IMG/VR virus record: IMGVR_UViG_3300033388_001381
Span: 1 to 22,487 of that record
Origin: a virus
Length of the DNA: 22,487 nt
Strand: one strand, 5' to 3'
Both the position numbers and the translations under genes were made by a program. The number at the start of each line of letters is the position of its first letter. The first letter of the stretch is position 1. Below the pieces are notes generated by a model, which was not told the DNA's origin, did no database searches, and saw nothing but the letters and a program-made list of their open reading frames with translations. This document shows, one piece after another, positions 1,330-13,211 of this stretch.

Positions 1330-2184
1330 CTAATCGAAGTCGTAGGGGTCTTCAACATCGCCTTCACGCTGTAGCGCCATGGCGGAGTTCTTTGCTTTGC
1401 CTGCTATCTGATCTTCGGTCGGCATGTAGTCAGCCGCACCGCCAGCAGCTGCGGGGGTTGCACTCCCGTTAGGCCCAGACATTGCTCCGCCTGCATGACC
1501 GAACTCGCTCTCCATCCAGCCCATAATCTCCATGACCTGCTCTTTAACCTCAGCCGATTCGATGCCCGGGTTGCCTCTCTGAATCCCAGACGCCAGACTT
1601 TGAGCAATCTTCAGCCTGCTCTCCGGGCTACGTCGTGCTTCACGCCACGCCTCTTCAGGGGTATACGCCTCGCCAGTTGTGGGGTTCTTTAAGTTATTTA
1701 TAATATGGTTATATAGTTTTACATCGGCAGGATCTCCCCGGCCGCCAGCTGTCTTCATGGACTGTAACTCCATGGCACGCTTATGTTTTCCCTCTGGGGT
1801 TTCTAAATCACTGGGCTTAATGCCTGCGGTCAGCATCATGAAACGAGAGTCCATCACCACATCTTCCCCGGTGTTACCATCCTGCCATGAGAATATGGTG
1901 TTGCCCTCGTCATCCTTCTGGGCCTGAATAGAATCAGGAGCAATTTTTTTATTGCCTGACTTATTAAAGCTCTCGATGGCCCCGCTAAAATCACCAACCA
2001 GCATCCGGGTGGCGGCATCTTTGAAGTTCTCACGCTTCATTTCGGACTTGAATTTATCCATCCGAAGTTTGCGTTCCTCGCCAGAGGCCTGAGCCTCAGC
2101 CTGACCAGCGTCTCGACGCTCCTCAACATTTTCCTGTTTAAGGTAGCCCTGAGTTGCCATTCCTGCTGCCATTCCTAAGCTCAT
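1330..2184 (-). CDS. Putative internal virion / DNA-ejection protein
   Basis: 284 residues starting MSLGMAAGMATQGYLKQ, preceded by a good ribosome-binding site (TAGGAGACGATC before ATG). Residues 15-60 are highly charged and probably helical. The middle has no motif I recognise, and the C-terminal 60 residues contain a Gly/Ala/Pro-rich linker and an acidic end (DVEDPYDFD). No signal peptide or clear transmembrane helix is seen. It lies 9 bases after another probable internal protein and just before the large one, the position of the ejection proteins in P22-like and T7-like podoviruses. The role is inferred from position and composition; I do not recognise a named family. Confidence 0.7.
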   Translation of the reverse strand: MSLGMAAGMATQGYLKQENVEERRDAGQAEAQASGEERKLRMDKFKSEMKRENFKDAATRMLVGDFSGAIESFNKSGNKKIAPDSIQAQKDDEGNTIFSWQDGNTGEDVVMDSRFMMLTAGIKPSDLETPEGKHKRAMELQSMKTAGGRGDPADVKLYNHIINNLKNPTTGEAYTPEEAWREARRSPESRLKIAQSLASGIQRGNPGIESAEVKEQVMEIMGWMESEFGHAGGAMSGPNGSATPAAAGGAADYMPTEDQIAGKAKNSAMALQREGDVEDPYDFD

Positions 2185-2193
2185 GATCGTCTC

Positions 2194-2934
2194 CTAATCG
2201 TAGTCAGTGGTGGTGTCGCCATACCCGGCCCCGCCGTAGACGTTGCTTTGAGGTACAGCATAATCAACCCCGGATGTTGGCCCGGACATTCCACCTACCC
2301 CGGTATCTGGTTGTGAGTTGTAGTCATTGATCGACTTGGCGGCCCACTGCCCTGCGGCACCGAAGCCAGCTGCGGCGCCCTCCCCATACTGGGCTGCGCT
2401 TTGTTGATGCATCATGGCCCCAGACTGTAAGGCTCCCATAACCGCCCCAGACTGCCCGGGGATCTCTTTCCCTGTACTGAGCGTCGCCAGCTTGCGTGCA
2501 AACTGCTTGTCATCTTCAGCCTCAGACTTGCGTCTGGCCCCGGTACGCGCACCAATTTCTGATAACGCACGCTCACGGCCTACCTCGTCGACGTCTTCCT
2601 GAAACCGTTCCTGCGATGGATCTATGCCGAGACGACCCAGTGACCGGGTTCGCATTCCCTCACGCTTACCATAAGCCATAGCCACATCGGTAGATGCCTC
2701 ACCCATGAACTGCTGAAGTTTTTCTCCCGGGACATAAGACCCCACCTCTTCGATAAGGCTGGCCTCGATGCCACCGTACATTTCTTTATAATCCGCATAC
2801 TGACTTTTGGCAAAATCAAGCTGCTCTTTCATGAGCGCACGAGATTTTTTACCCTCGCTTCTCGCATCATTACTACCCATCATCCCGCCAATAAGGCTAA
2901 CACCTCCAGCGACCGCTCCAGCTACCCAAGCCAT
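2194..2934 (-). CDS. Putative internal virion protein with N-terminal glycine-rich hydrophobic segment
   Basis: 246 residues. The start is well supported: GGAGGTAACTAATC precedes the ATG, which is 2 bases beyond the upstream stop. Residues 1-20 (MAWVAGAVAGGVSLIGGMMG) form a Gly/Ala-rich hydrophobic segment typical of short podovirus internal proteins that may enter the inner membrane during DNA ejection. Residues 25-160 are charged and helical (KKSRALMKEQLDFAKSQY, DEVGRERALSEIGARTG). The C-terminal 80 residues are Gly/Ala/Gln-rich and end in TTTDYD. The region resembles P22 gp7 and T7 gp14 in position, size and amphipathic composition rather than in a diagnostic motif. Confidence 0.72.
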   Translation of the reverse strand: MAWVAGAVAGGVSLIGGMMGSNDARSEGKKSRALMKEQLDFAKSQYADYKEMYGGIEASLIEEVGSYVPGEKLQQFMGEASTDVAMAYGKREGMRTRSLGRLGIDPSQERFQEDVDEVGRERALSEIGARTGARRKSEAEDDKQFARKLATLSTGKEIPGQSGAVMGALQSGAMMHQQSAAQYGEGAAAGFGAAGQWAAKSINDYNSQPDTGVGGMSGPTSGVDYAVPQSNVYGGAGYGDTTTDYD

Positions 2935-2936
2935 GA

Positions 2937-3410
2937 TTAGTTACCTCCAGCTGCCGTCAAGACCTTGCGAGTCTCTTCGATTATAAAGTGATTGTTCATT
3001 ATATCGCCCTTCGTTTTCAGATACGTGGCAGTGGGGAACTGGCTGTCTCTGCATTGTTGCCAGATTTCCTCTATCCTATCATCAATCTGATTATAGCCAA
3101 CATGCAGCCCATCTTCTTTAACTAGTTCTTCCTGCGCCGCAATAAGAAAATCAATATTAGAGTTTCCAAAAAGTCCACGTAGCGATCTCCTTACCTCGTC
3201 AATATCTCGATGAATGATGACCTTCTTTTCTTCGCCCTTTATGAACTCCTTTATCAACAGGTGTGCAGTTGTGCTGTCCCCTTCGTGGTCTGACTTCATG
3301 AAGTCAGCGTAGTCCGGGTAGTAATACAGCCCCTCATGAACACACCCTAAAAAATTTGCTAACCAGTACGTCCTGCTTCTCGGTAAAGCTAAAACAAAAA
3401 ACTTACTCAC
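2937..3410 (-). CDS. Sulfotransferase-like P-loop protein
   Basis: 157 residues. The N-terminus reads MSKFFVLALPRSRTYWLANF: a beta strand running into PRSRT-x-WL (Pro10 to Leu17), the pattern of the 5'-phosphosulfate-binding loop of PAPS-dependent sulfotransferases (PxxGTTWL and the PRSRTxWL variant). A second segment, VIIHRDIDEVRRSLRGLF (residues 64-81), has the Arg68 and Ser76 arrangement of the 3'-phosphate-binding motif. The protein is shorter than typical cellular sulfotransferases (roughly 250-300 residues), so it is minimal or specialised. Its start overlaps the upstream stop as ATGA, so it is translationally coupled inside the tail/ejection gene run. The substrate is unknown; a virion protein, a host envelope glycan or a small molecule are all possible. 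It could also be a P-loop kinase-like relative without sulfotransfer activity. Confidence 0.75.
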   Translation of the reverse strand: MSKFFVLALPRSRTYWLANFLGCVHEGLYYYPDYADFMKSDHEGDSTTAHLLIKEFIKGEEKKVIIHRDIDEVRRSLRGLFGNSNIDFLIAAQEELVKEDGLHVGYNQIDDRIEEIWQQCRDSQFPTATYLKTKGDIMNNHFIIEETRKVLTAAGGN

Positions 3411-3601
3411 CTCGGTACCTGATCGTCGGTGATAAGACCGAGATCAACAAGATCCTGAAAGGTTGGAACCGCATCAACTTTTCTCGCTGAAGTTTTTCGT
3501 ATACCTGTCATTATTTCTATCGTCTCTTTTATTGGCTCGATGTATTTTTTTAAAGGCTCATCGAACGGGATGTCTGGTATCGCTGGAGGATTAAGAGGCA
3601 T
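3407..3601 (-). CDS. Small tail-module protein, unknown function
   Basis: 64 residues starting MPLNPPAIPDIPFDEPLKKY: a proline-rich head, an amphipathic helix (KKYIEPIKETIEIMTGIR) and a short tail (TFQDLVDLGLITDDQVPR). Small proteins with a 'PPxPD...I.E.LE...G.R....TF.DL..LG' layout occur next to nozzle-type genes in podoviruses. It overlaps the preceding nozzle-like gene by 11 bases and the following sulfotransferase-like gene by 4 (ATGA), so it is a real, coupled member of the operon. A role as a small virion or assembly component is likely but not shown by the sequence. Confidence 0.7.
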   Translation of the reverse strand: MPLNPPAIPDIPFDEPLKKYIEPIKETIEIMTGIRKTSARKVDAVPTFQDLVDLGLITDDQVPR

Positions 3602-5399
3602 ATGCTTTCAACTCCCGAATAGATGTGGCCAACACAACGTCACGCACAGGGAACTGTCCAGAGATCTCAATTTCATATTCATTATATCTCTGCATGATAG
3701 GCACACGGAATGGAGCAACGCTGGTGACAGTTTGCTCAACAAGTAATACCCCATCACCAAAAATCTTTAAAACGTAAGATGAGGTGGTTGGCACAACCGG
3801 CAACAACCACAAACACGATCCATCTATTTCGTATTCATTTATCATGTTCCCGTTGATTGATGAACAGATGTCACCAGACGCAATCAGTGCGGCATTAAGT
3901 ATTTCGAGAGCATCTCTCTCGACTTGTATTTCATCAATTTCTTCCTGAGTTAGCTTCGCCTCATAATCCGCGTTCATCTTGCATGACGTCATCGCAATAA
4001 GTTGCGGCATTAAAAATGATTTAGATCTCCATGTATAAACAAGTCGTCCACCGCCAGCGTTAAATTCTTTTATGCTGGTAGTTAATGCCATCTCGTCATA
4101 GATCGCCATATACAGTCTGTCACCTTCATCATCCTGCCACACTGCGTCGGCATCAATATCAAGAAACGACGGGCCTGTCTGAGCATCAAGCAACATAGCC
4201 TGCTTACGTGAAGTGAAGAAGATAACGTACCTGCCGTCATATTTTTCTGCATGACTTGCTGAAGGAATGAGAGCCTGCCACTCTTCTCTTGTGTAGTAAT
4301 CTTTTGTTAATAGATCGGTGCCATTTTCTCCAACATAAAAAATACCGTCCGGGCATGCATAAGCAACACCTCTCGCAAGGTTAACTATGCTTCGTTTAGA
4401 GACACACGCCTGCCTGACCGGAAGCTTGGCCATCGACATAGACTCTGGTGTGATTCCAGTGATTGAGTATGGGTTAGATTTTGTGGTAACTACCAACGTG
4501 CTACCAAAAGATCCGAGGCCCACGACATCAACTGGTACGGTAAAGGAGTATTTTTCTGGCCACGCATATGGAACATATGGCTCACAGAAATAAATTTTGT
4601 TGTCGACAAACCCGGCGAATATTCCATTGGCCATCTCAGTCAAACCAATCAGGCCAGTTGGCGGATAGTCCCAGTCTTCAGTTGGAAGAACTTCTCCCAA
4701 CGCATCAGTAAGAATTGAATCGTTGTATTGAGGGGAACTTACATTGATTGTTACTTCAGCAACAAACAAATAATCAGCGCCAACAGTTCCAGAAGCTACC
4801 CTATAAATTCTCCACTTGGTTATGGGAACGATGTCACCACCGGGGGCTGCATCAAGACTGGTTAAGTCGATGCTCTCAACATCAAAATCACACGCAACAA
4901 TATTTGATACAGGACTCGGGGCGCTCTCTTCCCCCCAGTCATTTACAAACGTATAAACGTATGCAGTATCAACCGGGGTTACCGGTGATCCAGAAACAAG
5001 TGTTGCTGTTGGTGCGCCCGTCGGGGCAGGAACGCCTAGTATATAAGAGTCTTCCGGGTACTCATCATTCCCGCCTATATCTACCAGAACATTATTTGTT
5101 ACGCGAGGGACGTCGGTGCCGGTGTAATAGTGACGATCGGTTGTATCGTCGGCGAGCTGACTCTTTACAATATCAACATCGACATTCCATTGGAGCCACT
5201 CCCCAGTAGGCATTTTATAAATTGTTTTTATTTCACCAGCTAACGAAATCTCTGCTGTGTCACTGTTAGCTCTCCATGCACGCAACGCGCCACCATCAAG
5301 CCTGCTGTTTAAAGCAACCTGTGATTGATGAGACTTAAGGAATACCGAATCTAACTTCGGTGCAATCCCCGCAAACCCATGAAGTCTTATAATTGACAT
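3591..5399 (-). CDS. Tail nozzle / tail-tube hub-like virion protein
   Basis: 602 residues starting MSIIRLHGFAGIAPKLDSVF. This 'I.l.GF.GiaPrld...L....AQ.A.N..L..G.L.a.R' opening is typical of a podovirus tail protein family placed where T7 gp12-type or P22 gp10-type nozzle proteins sit. Residues about 127-168 look like a fibronectin/Ig-type insert (YTFVNDWGEESAPSPVS). Repeated Tyr/Asp/Gly-rich strand motifs in residues 240-430 suggest a beta-propeller. About residues 480-503 form a charged helix (KLTQEEIDEIQVERDALEIL), followed by beta-rich C-terminal sequence. It lies after the fibre genes and before the internal proteins. The propeller and nozzle call is inference from sequence style and position; a fold prediction would settle it. 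Confidence 0.65.
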   Translation of the reverse strand: MSIIRLHGFAGIAPKLDSVFLKSHQSQVALNSRLDGGALRAWRANSDTAEISLAGEIKTIYKMPTGEWLQWNVDVDIVKSQLADDTTDRHYYTGTDVPRVTNNVLVDIGGNDEYPEDSYILGVPAPTGAPTATLVSGSPVTPVDTAYVYTFVNDWGEESAPSPVSNIVACDFDVESIDLTSLDAAPGGDIVPITKWRIYRVASGTVGADYLFVAEVTINVSSPQYNDSILTDALGEVLPTEDWDYPPTGLIGLTEMANGIFAGFVDNKIYFCEPYVPYAWPEKYSFTVPVDVVGLGSFGSTLVVTTKSNPYSITGITPESMSMAKLPVRQACVSKRSIVNLARGVAYACPDGIFYVGENGTDLLTKDYYTREEWQALIPSASHAEKYDGRYVIFFTSRKQAMLLDAQTGPSFLDIDADAVWQDDEGDRLYMAIYDEMALTTSIKEFNAGGGRLVYTWRSKSFLMPQLIAMTSCKMNADYEAKLTQEEIDEIQVERDALEILNAALIASGDICSSINGNMINEYEIDGSCLWLLPVVPTTSSYVLKIFGDGVLLVEQTVTSVAPFRVPIMQRYNEYEIEISGQFPVRDVVLATSIRELKAYAS

Positions 5400-6951: not shown

Positions 6952-7494
6952 TTATTCCCACACGTTTGGCAGCATTGCCACACGAAAAATTAACATATAC
7001 CTGTTCTTGCTTCCACTAACCTGAGTAACCTCATGCTGGTGTTTTGATGCTATATAGCAATGTAGTTCTTTCTCTTCCTGCGGACGCTCAACCAGTGGGT
7101 CACCAATGCGTAAAACTCCACCGTCATCCGCCGACTGAATTAATATATTGAATGTCACGGCATCCAAACTGCCCTGCGCTCTCGGGTCGGTGTGCAAATA
7201 AGTATCACCTCCCGGTCTGGTAACAACAGCAATCACACCGCCAACACTAACGTCCTGCTTCGGCCACCGGGCCACATCATACGCCTCAGTAATTCGCCTA
7301 AAGATCTTGCCAACCAAAGCTGGATACTCGAACTCCCTGCTATTGCGCGTAGTGCTTCTTAACTTGTACCCTCTTACCCCTCGGGACAGACCGTCCTTAA
7401 ATACAGACTTGTCATCCTGATACTCCAAAAACCATACTGCCAACTCTTCTCTCTCTAACTCGGTGATAAAATTCTTACAACGCTCAAATCTCAC
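6952..7494 (-). CDS. 2-oxoglutarate/Fe(II)-dependent dioxygenase
   Basis: 180 residues. The double-stranded beta-helix core is visible: H101-T-D103 within GGDTYLHTDPRAQG supplies the first two iron ligands, H154 within SKHQHEVTQVSG the distal one, and R165 (SGSKNRYMLIFRV) the 2-oxoglutarate-binding arginine, 11 residues after the distal His. This is the prolyl-4-hydroxylase-type HxD...H...R pattern, and the length suits a minimal single-domain enzyme. It oxidises a substrate using O2 and 2-oxoglutarate; the substrate cannot be read from the sequence. The start overlaps the upstream cupin-like gene by 4 bases (ATGA), so the two are co-translated. Phage homologues occur in fibre regions, which suggests modification of a virion protein, but DNA or small-molecule substrates remain possible. 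Confidence 0.85.
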   Translation of the reverse strand: MRFERCKNFITELEREELAVWFLEYQDDKSVFKDGLSRGVRGYKLRSTTRNSREFEYPALVGKIFRRITEAYDVARWPKQDVSVGGVIAVVTRPGGDTYLHTDPRAQGSLDAVTFNILIQSADDGGVLRIGDPLVERPQEEKELHCYIASKHQHEVTQVSGSKNRYMLIFRVAMLPNVWE

Positions 7495-7838
7495 GTGTGT
7501 ATAAGAGGTTGCTTTAACCCGCCGCCAATTCTCGGTAAATCTTTGGGGTCAATAATATCCTCAACTTTCTCTCCATCCCTAAGAATATGCAAACAAAACG
7601 CCAGTCCATAATTGCTGGTACACTTTATTGAATGAATTAAGTTTTTCCGTATCACTAATATTCTTGGTGAGCTGTACTCGTAAACCTCACCTTCGATGGT
7701 GACCTCAAATTCCCCGATAGCCAGCAGAGTGTTGTGATCAAAAGTATGGCTATGCCCTTCCATAGTGTCACCGGCAGACATAAACTCCATCTGCTTCACC
7801 CACTGGTTGGATACAACGCTTACTTTACACTCTGGCAT
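7491..7838 (-). CDS. Small cupin-like protein
   Basis: 115 residues, a size that fits a single cupin domain. Motif 1 is seen as G(28)H(29)SH(31)TFDH(35) followed by LLAIGEFEVTIEG, where H35 stands where many cupins have their Glu/Gln ligand. Motif 2 is seen as PRILVIRKNLIHSIKC, with H69. Such proteins bind a metal and act as isomerases, dioxygenases, sugar epimerases or sensors; nothing here identifies the activity. The start overlaps the previous gene by 14 bases, with AAGGG upstream of the ATG. The stop is coupled (ATGA) to the 2OG-Fe(II) dioxygenase, making a paired metal-enzyme unit after the long fibre gene. Confidence 0.72.
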   Translation of the reverse strand: MPECKVSVVSNQWVKQMEFMSAGDTMEGHSHTFDHNTLLAIGEFEVTIEGEVYEYSSPRILVIRKNLIHSIKCTSNYGLAFCLHILRDGEKVEDIIDPKDLPRIGGGLKQPLIHT

Positions 7839-8172: not shown

Positions 8173-11100
8173 CTATGCGACCACATATCTGTAATCAATG
8201 TCATATCCTGTTGTTGTTTTTTCACTCGCTCCTAGCGTCGAAAATCTAGGCGCATCAGCACTAACACCATCCGTATCATGTCCAGCCATCATGAACCTAT
8301 CTCCTGAAGTTGAGTGGATCATAGGGAAAAAACAATAAGCCGTTAATGTAAAATTAACGCGGCTCGTATCCGCAGAGCCGGATAAAGATACTGTGCCAGT
8401 ATCAAGCTCAGCCCTCGCAACAGCGCCAGCGCCAATTGCTCCAATCTGAAAGTCAGTTCCTGCGTCATCGGTAAACCACAATTCATTAGGTGTGGTATTT
8501 TTAACCCAAATTTGTCCATAGGCAGCGGTATCAGCCCTTGCTGCCGATATTTCTTTTAATTTAAAGGGCTGTTCAAATTTAGTCTCGGTTGTGCCTATTA
8601 CTATTTCATTAGCCCCGCCACAAATAAGTGACAGGACATTAGTGGATGACCAACCAACCCCTGTGGTTAATTCCGCTTTATTTGGGATAAGAGTTGGATT
8701 AGTTTGAGTAGCTGCCTCATCTACTATTGCGGGGCCAGCCGCATTACTAGCCTGTATAGCAAAAGTATTTAAGTCTAAATTAGCACCAAGCTGTGGAGAT
8801 ACATCTTCAACTATATTACCCAATCCGCCGCCGGCTGCGGCCTCAAAACTCGCAAGGCCTGACGCGAAGTCGTAAGTAAGAACGTAGTTGTCCTGCCCTG
8901 CTCCAAGGGATTGGTCGGCATCAAACTTCATTGTCCCAAGCCATATATTTCCTGAACCATTTGGAAGTATTTTTATCGTGCCATTAACCACTGTGGATAT
9001 CAGGTCATGGGTATCTAGGTCAATGTCACCGCCAAACTTCCAGCTGCCATCGTTGTTCAAGGCAGTCGTGACCCATGATATTGCCGAGCCTAGCGTTGAA
9101 TTGACCGCCGTATTAAAATTGATTACTCCTTGCGCTCCAACAAACTCTATGCCAGAAGCAAATCCTGCAATAATTCTTGAATCTATATTTGAACTGTTGG
9201 CAAATACATTACTGCCAAGCTCAAGACCGGCGGAAGTGTTTGCCCCAGTGATCATTCCCGCGTCACCGAGCTGGATCACTTCACGGGTGGTGTGCCATGT
9301 CTCAAGAGAGTTCGCGCCAACCATTAACTTACCAAGGTTGGTTATATTGAATGTTCCTGCATCTAGGGCGGCACCCAACACCGGGCTAGTGTCCTCAACA
9401 ATATTTTCAAGGTAAACGCCTGAGTGATTGTGATTGCCTATTGCTAATTGACCCGCGCTGGTTCCAACATCACCGTTGGTATCTAGCAGCTCGTAAGTTA
9501 CTGCTCCGGCTAAGATGTAAGACTGTAAATCTGAGATGTCTGCTTCAACAACAGTAATAGTATTGTTGGCTGTATTAATGCCAGCATTAAGAATCTCATT
9601 TGTTTTGAAGTCTGAGTCACCGTCGTTCTTAATCTCTAGTCCATCAATCCATGTGATTGCACCATCAACCAAACCAGCAATGGCAACCCTAAAGAAGTGT
9701 GTTCCATCTTGCTGATAATAATTGGAAGCCTGATCAGCGGCCTGATATTTCCATGTGCCACCAGTATCTAACCAAGCATTTTGATTAAGGAGTAGAGACT
9801 GACCTGCGGCCTCTCCTGTTTGGGCAAGTATAGATGCGGTTCCACCTATCTCCAGCGCAGTGAATCCAGCAATCCATACCTCTATCCCAGTGCTACCAAT
9901 CCCGACATGGCCTCCTGAGAAATAAATATCACTACTAGCTTGCGTCCAGTATTCTGTATCGGTGTAATTCCCAGAGTGAATATCAGTTCCACCCTGATCA
10001 GCCGTCCAGTCAATGTGGTTATTAGCTACGTCATGATCAAACGCCCAGTTAGAACTTATAGGAACAGTAGTGGCGGCATCTACTGGAGTATCATCAATAT
10101 CCGCTATAAGCAGGTAAGTGGCATGAGTATGATTGCCGAGGGCAACGGTTGACCCTGTCGTTCCGGTTGGAACATTTGCAATCGGGATGTTAGTCCATGT
10201 GACAGCCGAGGTAAGGTCATTAACCTCGGCACCAACAGCGGGAGCTTTCCAGCTGGCCGTTGTTGCAGAGTCTGCTGACAGAACCCAACCAGTCGTAAGT
10301 CCAGCCAAGTCGAGCAAGTTCACCTCAGCAGCGAGAGCCGTTACATCAGTGGCGCCAGCGGCCAACAGGTGCGTGTGGGAGAAGTTAGCAACATTTACAC
10401 CAATATCTGCATCCACCAAAACGTCGGCATGGGATGTTTCGCTGGTTGATGTAACGTCTGCGCCATCAGCAACATTAATTATTGTTCTGACATTAGCGGC
10501 AGTCAGGACTTCGACATCTCCTGTAGCTGCAGTTATGCGGCCAAGGATAGAATTGGTTGCCATCTGGGCCATCATGGACAGCGTGACTTTGTTAGCACCT
10601 ATAATTGTGGCGCCATCACCCGTGGACGTTACATCTCCAGTGTGATTCGGGTGCGAGTAAACTGTGTCGGTGTAGTTGTCTGCATGAATGTTGGTGCCTT
10701 GAGTTGCTGCCCAATCGACATGCTCAGCAGTAACAAATCCAACAAGCAAATCATGGTCTACTATTGCTTCAATCTCTCCAGCTGTTTGATCAGCAGTTGA
10801 GCCGTCCTCAACATTGATAATCGTTCTTACGTTGGCTGCAGTAAGGACTTCAACATTTCCAGTAGCGGCTGTAATTCTGCCAAGGATGGAGTTGGTAGCC
10901 ATCGTGTTCATCATGGCTAACGTGACTTTGTTTGCCCCGATGACTGTCGCGCCGTCACCAGTAGAGGTTACATCCCCTGTGTGGTTGGGATGTGAGTACA
11001 CCGTATTGATGTAATTCCCGGCGTGTATATCTGTTCCACCTTGATCAGCCGTCCAGTCAATATGCTCGTTGGTTAAAGCTATATGTGTATCAATCTGAGC

Positions 11101-12894
11101 ATGGGTATTAGTGCCGATGTTACTAAGTAGCGCGTGATCATCGATACCAATGTGAGGAACTGTCGTCCAGTTTACTGCATACACTGTTGTGCTTGGTGAG
11201 TCGACCAAAGCAATAAGCGTATCGCCAATAACAAATGGTTGGCTATCTACTGTGCCGGCCACCGTGACGTTAAACCAGTCACCTTGATTTGTTGCGGCAG
11301 GGAAAGTTCCGGCACTTGCATCCCACACGCCAACGTACTCACCGAAAGCGTATGTCGGGGCAACCACCCACGTGTTCTGGAATCTCACATAATTATTAGA
11401 GTTGTTCGGCGCATCCGAATAATGGAGGTCTGCATCCGAGATATGAGAATCGATAGCTGCGTGGGAGTTCGTGCCAATGTTCGTAATGGCGGTGTGATCA
11501 ATACTTGCTTCGGTAAAATGAGTTGTAGCTACATCATGATCAAACGCCCAATTGGAGCTAATCGGAAATGCAGTAACGCCGTTCACCGGGATGTCGTCAA
11601 CGTCAGCCTGCTTAAGTATTGTGGCATCGTAACCCTCTACGGTCACTCCAATATCAGCCGGCACCAGATAAGCATTAAGGTCAAGGTTGGATGCGCGAGA
11701 CATTAATGTGCCGTTCGACGCATGACTATAAATAACAAACGCAATGGCTAGGCTTAACCCGGATGTTGGCTCTACATTAGTGAGATACCCAACAGTTGTT
11801 GTGCTAATAAATAGTACCTGCCCGTCTACCCATGTTTCTGAGTATAGGGATCCAGAGGTATTGATTGATCGCACTTTACCTACAGTATTAATTTTGCCGT
11901 CCTCACCATTGAGGATTTCTTCCGTGGCTAAACCAAGATAAAACTTTGCGTTGACTGGGTCGGTACCATCCATTGGAGAAATAGTGATACGGCTGCTTGC
12001 CCCAAGGGTGCCGGTAGCCATGACAGGGGTTCCGTCTGTGATCGTACTTCCAGAGTTATTCCTTGCATGGATGTGCATCTCTTGGCCAAGCTGCAGCACA
12101 GACCCATTCTGAATTAAGTCAAGAGTTTCTTCGTTAGTGTTCCAACTAACAATTCCCTGACTGCCGGATCCCCCGCTAAACTGAAGAGAAGCTACCCCTG
12201 TAATATTGTCAGTATCATCTAAAACAACACCACTTGATTGCAAGGTACCATCCAACCCATCGTATCTTGCCAGAGTGTTATCAACTGTGACCGCCGGATG
12301 TTCTTTATGTATAGACAGGTCTGCAATATGCGTATCGATAGCCGCGTGAGTGTTGGTACCGATATTAAGAATCGCCGCGTGGTCGATACTTCCCTCAGTG
12401 AAATGTAAGGTGGCATCTGAAATATGGGTATCGATTTGCGCGTGAGTGTTGGTACCAACATTTAAGATATTGGCGTGGCTTATGCTACCTTCGGTGAAAT
12501 GTTCGGTGGCAGTAAAATCTAAGAGATTATCGTGACTTACTATTGCCTCGATCTCTCCTGCCGTTTGATCTGCGGTGGATCCATCTTCCACATTAATGGC
12601 TGTTCTTACAGCCGCTGCATTAGCACTGGCCAGCAGGTTTGTTCTGGCCCATAGAGTGAGAGCTGTTACATCGTAAGAATTAAGCCCGGTAGCATAGTGG
12701 ATCTCGTTAGCATTTATGGTTACGCCAACCATCCCCAAAAGAACGGCATCCAAAGTAAGGCCGCTATCGATGTCGGTAGCAGCATTATTTAGCTGGATAA
12801 TTATTTCTGCGAAGTTGTCCCGAACGCTCTCGGTCGTCGGGTTACCAAAGACCGGGACGCTTGGATCAATGCCAGATGTATCAATCGAACTCAT
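8173..12894 (-). CDS. Long repeat-containing tail fibre protein
   Basis: 1573 residues, the largest gene here. The start is the ATG at 12894, fused to the upstream stop as ATGA; a TTG six codons earlier is less likely. Residues 1-45 (SSIDTSGIDPSVPVFGNPTT) look like the virion-attachment end. Four copies of an 'NIGTNTHAxIDTHI' motif occur. About residues 268-400 carry a widespread fibre domain (EMHIHARNNSGSTITDGTPV ... IAFVIYSHASNGTL). A 68-residue unit occurs twice (631-698 and 744-811). Later come GNHTH motifs, 'WVLSADSATTASWKAP' and 'SGGHVGIGSTG' segments. The C-terminus ends GYDIDYRYVVA, and no S74 intramolecular chaperone signature is seen. It is a trimeric receptor-binding or side fibre by family knowledge; the receptor is unknown. 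Confidence 0.88.
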   Translation of the reverse strand: MSSIDTSGIDPSVPVFGNPTTESVRDNFAEIIIQLNNAATDIDSGLTLDAVLLGMVGVTINANEIHYATGLNSYDVTALTLWARTNLLASANAAAVRTAINVEDGSTADQTAGEIEAIVSHDNLLDFTATEHFTEGSISHANILNVGTNTHAQIDTHISDATLHFTEGSIDHAAILNIGTNTHAAIDTHIADLSIHKEHPAVTVDNTLARYDGLDGTLQSSGVVLDDTDNITGVASLQFSGGSGSQGIVSWNTNEETLDLIQNGSVLQLGQEMHIHARNNSGSTITDGTPVMATGTLGASSRITISPMDGTDPVNAKFYLGLATEEILNGEDGKINTVGKVRSINTSGSLYSETWVDGQVLFISTTTVGYLTNVEPTSGLSLAIAFVIYSHASNGTLMSRASNLDLNAYLVPADIGVTVEGYDATILKQADVDDIPVNGVTAFPISSNWAFDHDVATTHFTEASIDHTAITNIGTNSHAAIDSHISDADLHYSDAPNNSNNYVRFQNTWVVAPTYAFGEYVGVWDASAGTFPAATNQGDWFNVTVAGTVDSQPFVIGDTLIALVDSPSTTVYAVNWTTVPHIGIDDHALLSNIGTNTHAQIDTHIALTNEHIDWTADQGGTDIHAGNYINTVYSHPNHTGDVTSTGDGATVIGANKVTLAMMNTMATNSILGRITAATGNVEVLTAANVRTIINVEDGSTADQTAGEIEAIVDHDLLVGFVTAEHVDWAATQGTNIHADNYTDTVYSHPNHTGDVTSTGDGATIIGANKVTLSMMAQMATNSILGRITAATGDVEVLTAANVRTIINVADGADVTSTSETSHADVLVDADIGVNVANFSHTHLLAAGATDVTALAAEVNLLDLAGLTTGWVLSADSATTASWKAPAVGAEVNDLTSAVTWTNIPIANVPTGTTGSTVALGNHTHATYLLIADIDDTPVDAATTVPISSNWAFDHDVANNHIDWTADQGGTDIHSGNYTDTEYWTQASSDIYFSGGHVGIGSTGIEVWIAGFTALEIGGTASILAQTGEAAGQSLLLNQNAWLDTGGTWKYQAADQASNYYQQDGTHFFRVAIAGLVDGAITWIDGLEIKNDGDSDFKTNEILNAGINTANNTITVVEADISDLQSYILAGAVTYELLDTNGDVGTSAGQLAIGNHNHSGVYLENIVEDTSPVLGAALDAGTFNITNLGKLMVGANSLETWHTTREVIQLGDAGMITGANTSAGLELGSNVFANSSNIDSRIIAGFASGIEFVGAQGVINFNTAVNSTLGSAISWVTTALNNDGSWKFGGDIDLDTHDLISTVVNGTIKILPNGSGNIWLGTMKFDADQSLGAGQDNYVLTYDFASGLASFEAAAGGGLGNIVEDVSPQLGANLDLNTFAIQASNAAGPAIVDEAATQTNPTLIPNKAELTTGVGWSSTNVLSLICGGANEIVIGTTETKFEQPFKLKEISAARADTAAYGQIWVKNTTPNELWFTDDAGTDFQIGAIGAGAVARAELDTGTVSLSGSADTSRVNFTLTAYCFFPMIHSTSGDRFMMAGHDTDGVSADAPRFSTLGASEKTTTGYDIDYRYVVA
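10462..10665 (-). repeat. Fibre 68-residue repeat, copy 2
   Basis: Encodes residues 744-811 of the fibre (TVYSHPNHTGDVTS ... RTIINVADG). It is the same length as copy 1 (10801-11004) without indels. By eye 62 of 68 residues match, but the DNA differs at many wobble positions. Confidence 0.9.
10801..11004 (-). repeat. Fibre 68-residue repeat, copy 1
   Basis: Encodes residues 631-698 of the fibre (TVYSHPNHTGDVTS ... RTIINVEDG), paired with copy 2 at 10462-10665. The segment following it (STADQTAGEIEAIV) also recurs near the fibre N-terminus after INVEDG. Confidence 0.9.
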
Positions 12895-13211
12895 CTTAAT
12901 TGTGTGTCCCAACGTGATCGTGTTACGCCATTCTCAACGTCCCACTCGCTTAATCCGGCATCCCATACACTGTAAGTAATAACGTATCTTGACTCACCAA
13001 CCATCGCTACAATCTCATCGCTCTCAATGAACGCCCTTATGCGGGGGATAACATGAGCGACAATTTTCAGCGCCGGTTGAACTGACTTTACTACCGCGCT
13101 TATATTTACATAATCAACAAAGGCTACCGTCTTGGTAGCCGCAGCAGGATCTATCGCCTCAACGTGGGCATCGATCTTTACATAATCAACATCGGCACTT
13201 ATGTGTGACAT
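12891..13211 (-). CDS. Small hypothetical virion-module protein
   Basis: 106 residues starting MSHISADVDYVKIDAHVEAI, with a 1-base TAATG overlap to the upstream gene and an ATGA overlap to the fibre gene, so all three are tightly coupled. The sequence is strand-rich with alternating short hydrophobic segments (DYVKIDAHVEAID, DYVNISAVVKSVQ: an apparent internal duplication at about residues 9-21 and 34-46). The C-terminus is Trp/Asp-rich (YSVWDAGLSEWDVENG). It might cap the BppU-like protein or help attach the fibre, judged only by position. No family recognised. Confidence 0.7.
   Translation of the reverse strand: MSHISADVDYVKIDAHVEAIDPAAATKTVAFVDYVNISAVVKSVQPALKIVAHVIPRIRAFIESDEIVAMVGESRYVITYSVWDAGLSEWDVENGVTRSRWDTQLR

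Follow-up and report, generated by a model that had tools for sequence, protein, structure and literature searches.

The window analyzed here, the whole 22,487-nucleotide stretch of DNA (positions 1 to 22,487 of IMG/VR record IMGVR_UViG_3300033388_001381), belongs to a virus record of 28,415 bases. On its minus strand, at 2937..3410, lies a compact sulfotransferase-like gene that starts with a GTG at position 3410 and encodes a protein of 157 amino acids (MSKFFVLALPRSRTYWLANFLGCVHEG...). The start overlaps by 4 nt (3407..3410, minus) an upstream ORF of 64 amino acids (3407..3601, minus), an arrangement typical of translational coupling, and the stop codon lies 2 nt ahead of the ATG of the next gene. 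That gene (2194..2934, minus) encodes the first ejection-type protein, which has a hydrophobic N-terminus and matches PHROG 8003 (‘virion structural protein’) and PHROG 21132 (‘DNA ejection’); it is followed by the next gene of the ejection run (1330..2184, minus). On the upstream side, a large virion protein (3591..5399, minus) matches PHROG 511 (‘internal virion protein’) with an E-value of 3e-143. An earlier note, made from the sequence alone, had placed the gene inside a tail/ejection run and described it as translationally coupled to its neighbors, and both observations hold.

The closest relatives of the encoded protein (58%) are found in two viral loci, L011 and L012, which share with the window the GTG start, the 4-nt overlap, and the neighboring genes in the same order, including the coupled 64-residue ORF (65%) and the gene at 1330..2184, and differ from it by one additional gene straight after the sulfotransferase-like gene. 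Between the window and L012, differences at codon positions 1, 2 and 3 number 53, 30 and 80 over 156 codons, indicating coding constraint in a pattern of purifying selection. The ORF at 2937..3410 is a real gene.

The two motifs reported in the earlier note, PRSRTYWL at residues 10-17 and R68...S76, are located exactly as described. The former (3360..3383, minus) corresponds to the 5'-phosphosulfate-binding (5'-PSB) loop of sulfotransferases that employ PAPS as the donor, and the latter, which reads RDIDEVRRS (3183..3209, minus), to their 3'-phosphate-binding (3'-PB) motif. The PAP-binding residues of SULT2A8 are Lys44, Ser45, Thr47 and Trp49 in the 5'-PSB and Arg121 and Ser129 in the 3'-PB (PMC8134075), and the spacing within each of the motifs R11-S12-x-T14-x-W16 and R68-x7-S76 is identical to that of these cofactor-binding residues. 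The 3'-PB consensus of PF00685 is RxxxDxxxS, and Stf0 has Arg in place of Lys in the loop (PMC11625862). The window protein carries the [KR]SxTxW loop with Arg instead of the usual Lys, as does Stf0, and a 3'-PB motif of the form RxxxExxxS, in which the acidic residue at +4 is Glu at the position of the consensus Asp. These motifs occur beyond chance: the pattern P[RK]SxTxW appeared twice in 200,000 shuffles of the window protein and never together with the second pattern, and outside the family it was found once among 4330 ORFs of at least 100 amino acids.

Conservation was counted over 117 unique sequences of phage relatives. P10, R11, W16, H25 and G44 show no variation, and S12 (113/117), T14 (116/117) and C23 (114/117) are nearly invariant, such that 113 of the 117 family members contain the loop P-R-S-x-T-x-W. 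The 3'-PB residues are less strictly kept, R68 in 96 and S76 in 89 sequences. The invariant His25 (3336..3338, minus), which has an acidic residue directly after it throughout the family, is a candidate catalytic base; sulfotransferases employ either His or Glu in this capacity (PMC11625862). His25 lies close behind the loop, in contrast to the catalytic His of the SULTs, which is positioned elsewhere. A point against a sulfotransferase is that, where 57 of 63 relatives have a conserved C-terminal Arg, the window protein has Thr129.

Searched alone, the window protein reached no Pfam or NCBIfam model and gave one clear profile match, to PHROG 10855 (‘hydrolase’, E 2.6e-8, residues 3-127), a profile that was matched by all 57 aligned family members. 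With this protein as the sole query, a search of viral contigs retrieved nothing, and a PDB sequence search returned only chance helical matches; its relatives came from alignment searches, which yielded 73 and 71 viral loci in partially overlapping sets. Distant relatives are present in Pseudomonas, Stenotrophomonas, Xanthomonas and Variovorax phages, where they are annotated either as ‘nucleotide triphosphate hydrolase’ or as ‘similar to sulfotransferase’. A first scan of bacterial genomes detected no family members, and a second detected seven, mostly in metagenome bins. Among the 57 members, 45 matched the Pfam family Sulfotransfer_3 (best E 6.9e-7) and 35 matched Sulfotransfer_1, with a single stray kinase match. 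Five relatives checked singly all fell below the curated cut-offs of these two families and the window protein matched neither, so it is not filed under Sulfotransfer_1 or Sulfotransfer_3, unlike the enzymes of PF00685 and PF13469. Profile matches to solved sulfotransferases were individually weak, but aligned the Arg with Arg and the Ser with Ser; widening the profile (A10) did not improve the matches to the PDB.

The earlier note remarked that 157 residues is small for a sulfotransferase, and indeed this is about half the length of the cytosolic and bacterial PAPS sulfotransferases (about 250-300 amino acids); within the phage family, however, small size is a shared trait, most members being about 150-185 amino acids long. 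PHROG 10855, which includes proteins of Pamexvirus, Nipunavirus and related Pseudomonas phages, represents the same sequence family as the window protein; in the Pseudomonas phages, identity to the latter is 28-33%, the loop reads PRSGTTW or PRSATTW, and the gene lies by DNA-metabolism genes. These observations suggest that the label ‘hydrolase’ is uninformative and hides a likely enzyme class. The label may have been propagated by annotation from the name of the fold, ‘P-loop NTP hydrolase’, in a family that resembles sulfotransferases.

An AlphaFold2 model of the window protein, built with 57 sequences, had a pLDDT of 92 and a pTM of 0.88 and matches the alpha/beta P-loop fold of sulfotransferases along its entire length. 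The best VIA-align match was Teg12 (Z 10.1, 136 residues, 3.0 A), followed by many SULTs with Z-scores of 9-10 over about 140-154 residues, and the model thus shares its fold with members of PF00685 (Sulfotransfer_1) and PF13469 (Sulfotransfer_3), such as SULT2A and Teg12. Foldseek matches to the PDB were weak (best E 2e-3). The best viral fold match (E 2.5e-6) was A0A6J5NPC3, an equally small protein (156 amino acids) of an uncultured member of Caudovirales, automatically annotated as ‘Sulfotransferase family’; in the literature searched, no setting or function has been described for proteins of this type.

Shikimate kinases aligned with the model at Z 9.0-9.7, within one Z unit of the sulfotransferases and effectively tied with them, so that the fold alone is not decisive. 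A nucleotide or sugar kinase, or an NTP hydrolase, would be compatible with these scores as well as with the PHROG 10855 match and the GenBank annotations. The kinases, however, align over 114-124 residues compared to 134-154 for the sulfotransferases, and the members of the family match sulfotransferase models in Pfam. What decides is the sequence of the loop, because the Walker A motif GxxxxGK[ST] is absent from both the window protein and the family loop, and the loop of the PAPS type hardly varies. Given the absence of Walker A, we rejected the kinase/hydrolase assignment, which we consider very improbable. The finding that, according to the earlier note, would have spoken against a sulfotransferase, namely a kinase fold lacking a PAPS pocket, did not materialize: kinases follow close behind, but the ATP-binding loop is missing.

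The position of the gene is recurrent. In podovirus-like phages, it lies between a DNA-stabilizing or tail gene and the gene for the first DNA-ejection protein, and the order large tail/DNA-stabilizing protein, gene, first ejection protein is seen in L011-L015, L029, L034, L041 and many other loci. This slot resembles the gene order gp10-...-gp7-gp20-gp16 of phage P22. The PHROG assignments of the neighbors were scanned with one member per 70%-identity cluster. Downstream, 15 of 67 proteins matched PHROG 598 (‘DNA ejection’) and smaller numbers matched other ejection PHROGs; upstream, 15 of 42 proteins, which we picked from 73 as the clearer tail-side neighbors, matched ‘head closure Hc3’, and internal virion proteins were also seen. 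The first ejection protein in the slot typically has an A/G/V-rich start (for example, MPWGAAAAVGG), and by a composition test such an N-terminus follows the gene in 32 of 67 cases compared to 21 of 566 background genes (Fisher p about 1e-21, uncorrected for relatedness). As a side observation, the same gene occurs twice, 32.7 kb apart, on one 64.75-kb contig (IMGVR_UViG_3300026519_000012; L013 and L014), which may represent a genome of about 32.7 kb that was assembled in duplicate.

In some of the relatives, the gene has a companion that encodes an Asp/Asn beta-hydroxylase; three members matched PF05118 above the cut-off, with E-values of about 1e-10 to 1e-9. Of 105 unique relatives, 29 have the hydroxylase gene as a direct neighbor (13 of 66 at 70% non-redundancy), and only four have it elsewhere in the locus. 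Examples are at 6447-7010 in L012, 6446-7015 in L013 and 6431-7021 in L015, with further matches in L093-L168. Phage hydroxylases of this family, for which 80 viral loci were retrieved, recur directly ahead of the first ejection protein, both in phages that have the sulfotransferase and in phages that lack it. In the hydroxylase-only phages, the same slot is occupied and a cupin is often added.

These associations bear on the acceptor. Apart from a virion protein, an active sulfotransferase might act on a host cell-surface glycan or lipid, blocking re-adsorption or altering the receptor late in infection, or on a small metabolite. Such activity would have precedents in NodH and Stf0, bacterial sulfotransferases that act on glycolipids (PMC11625862), and some family members are encoded away from virion genes: in L018-L032 the gene sits beside lysis-type genes, and in the NP1-like siphophages NP1 and PaMx28 it is located among DNA-metabolism genes, which makes a virion substrate less natural there. 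The recurrent position right before the ejection proteins in divergent phages would, however, be unexpected for an enzyme modifying surface glycans, as would the pairing with an Asp/Asn hydroxylase, whose enzyme type uses proteins as substrates. We regard a host molecule as the main competing possibility, only slightly less likely than a virion protein.

Not all family members retain the complete set of cofactor-binding residues. In 20 sequences (L093-L095 and most of L171-L190), R68 is replaced by Ser, Gly, Thr or Asn and S76 by Phe or Tyr, with the P-loop, His25 and the genomic slot all retained. In the phylogenetic tree, these sequences form one clade (support 99/98), which also contains L192, where the Arg is kept, and which adjoins the clade of the window protein with modest support (95/75). 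Most simply, the Arg and Ser would have been lost within this lineage. The loss of these residues in homologs, named in the earlier note as evidence against a sulfotransferase, is thus found in a derived clade alone, about 20 of the 117 sequences, whereas the clade of the window protein keeps both. Judged from these replacements, the clade shows that canonical 3'-phosphate binding is apparently dispensable in some members and that the slot would not strictly need canonical PAPS binding; the donor or the function may have changed. A related reading is that the gene of the window encodes a P-loop protein with lost or changed chemistry, such as a nucleotide-binding assembly factor or an enzyme using another donor, which the ejection module has retained. 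The presence of all cofactor residues in the clade of the window protein runs counter to it, and the invariance of His25 even where R68 is missing argues for catalysis, so we deem it improbable. The reading of the window protein is untouched by the divergent clade.

Taken together, the window protein quite likely possesses sulfotransferase activity, with PAPS-dependent sulfo transfer during late infection as its most probable function. The earlier note had already proposed a PAPS sulfotransferase, and the proposal is strengthened by the SULT2A8-like motif spacing, the grouping of the model with sulfotransferases and the matches to Sulfotransfer_3. The 5'-phosphosulfate of PAPS would be held by R11 together with the backbone of the PRSRT loop, and R68 and S76 would hold the 3'-phosphate, with S76 additionally steadying R11; His25 would deprotonate the acceptor hydroxyl, which would attack the sulfur in line, releasing PAP. 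By eye, we recognized no sulfate-activation or PAPS genes among the ORFs of the window and the rest of the 28-kb record, so that the host must supply PAPS if the protein is a sulfotransferase. The acceptor may be a side chain in one of the late virion proteins, from the tail or ejection apparatus, encoded on the same transcript, and in relatives the adjacent Asp/Asn beta-hydroxylase may make or modify the acceptor beforehand. The position beside ejection genes, the coupled translation and the hydroxylase in relatives together favor a virion protein, which is our best single, if tentative, guess, although gene neighborhood is no proof of substrate. As a whole, the explanation that we favor on balance is a compact PAPS-dependent sulfotransferase of an ejection-module phage family that acts, most likely, on a virion protein.

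Phage sulfotransferases are already known by annotation, and the literature searched provides annotation mentions only. One paper, on OM43 phages, calls the function unclear (PMC10580990), and another lists one such gene as a metabolic gene (PMC8290583). The sulfotransferases noted as auxiliary metabolic genes in OM43 and glacier-ice phages are PAPS-type enzymes in phage genomes, compared here by description, and the passages on them mention no conserved slot. The compact family, the slot, the hydroxylase pairing and the clade devoid of R68 appear to be new, in that we found no description of them in the open-access literature searched. More than 100 phage sulfotransferase-like proteins, whose genes lie repeatedly beside those for the DNA-injection channel proteins and often next to a hydroxylase gene, suggest that chemical modification late in infection, perhaps of the phage particle itself, may be carried out by many phages, and turn the question of why phages carry sulfotransferases into one that mass spectrometry of a single isolate could answer.

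A more speculative and, in our view, unlikely generalization is that podovirus-like phages possess, ahead of their ejection genes, a dedicated cassette, comprising the sulfotransferase, often the Asp/Asn beta-hydroxylase and sometimes the cupin, that hydroxylates and sulfates tail/ejection proteins. If so, sulfated virion proteins would be a widespread, unrecognized feature of phage particles; to our knowledge, there are few reports of sulfated proteins from bacteria and none from phage particles.

The ejection slot of the window contains no hydroxylase. At 7491..7838 (minus), away from this slot, the window encodes a cupin from the family seen alongside the Asp/Asn hydroxylases of phages (E 1.8e-15 with a profile that did not include it). 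Along with it, a possible 2OG-Fe(II) oxygenase (6952..7494, minus) displays, by eye, an HxD motif (HTD) and a distal His/Arg, with a match to PF13640 below the cut-off (E 0.067); searches of phages and viral contigs recovered no relatives of it, and an AlphaFold model from the single sequence (pLDDT 31) is uninformative. Identity of this protein with the hydroxylase of L012-L015 was considered, but the hydroxylase profile does not detect it. The cupin gene adjoins a gene for a 1579-residue fiber-like protein (8173-12912, minus) with many repeats of the type NIGTNTHAQIDTHI. Finally, a cultured isolate and possible experimental system, Lysobacter gilvus HX-5-24, harbors a prophage-like region (L242, 4231-6099) with, in this order, genes for the hydroxylase, a sulfotransferase in which Cys replaces S76, and ejection proteins.
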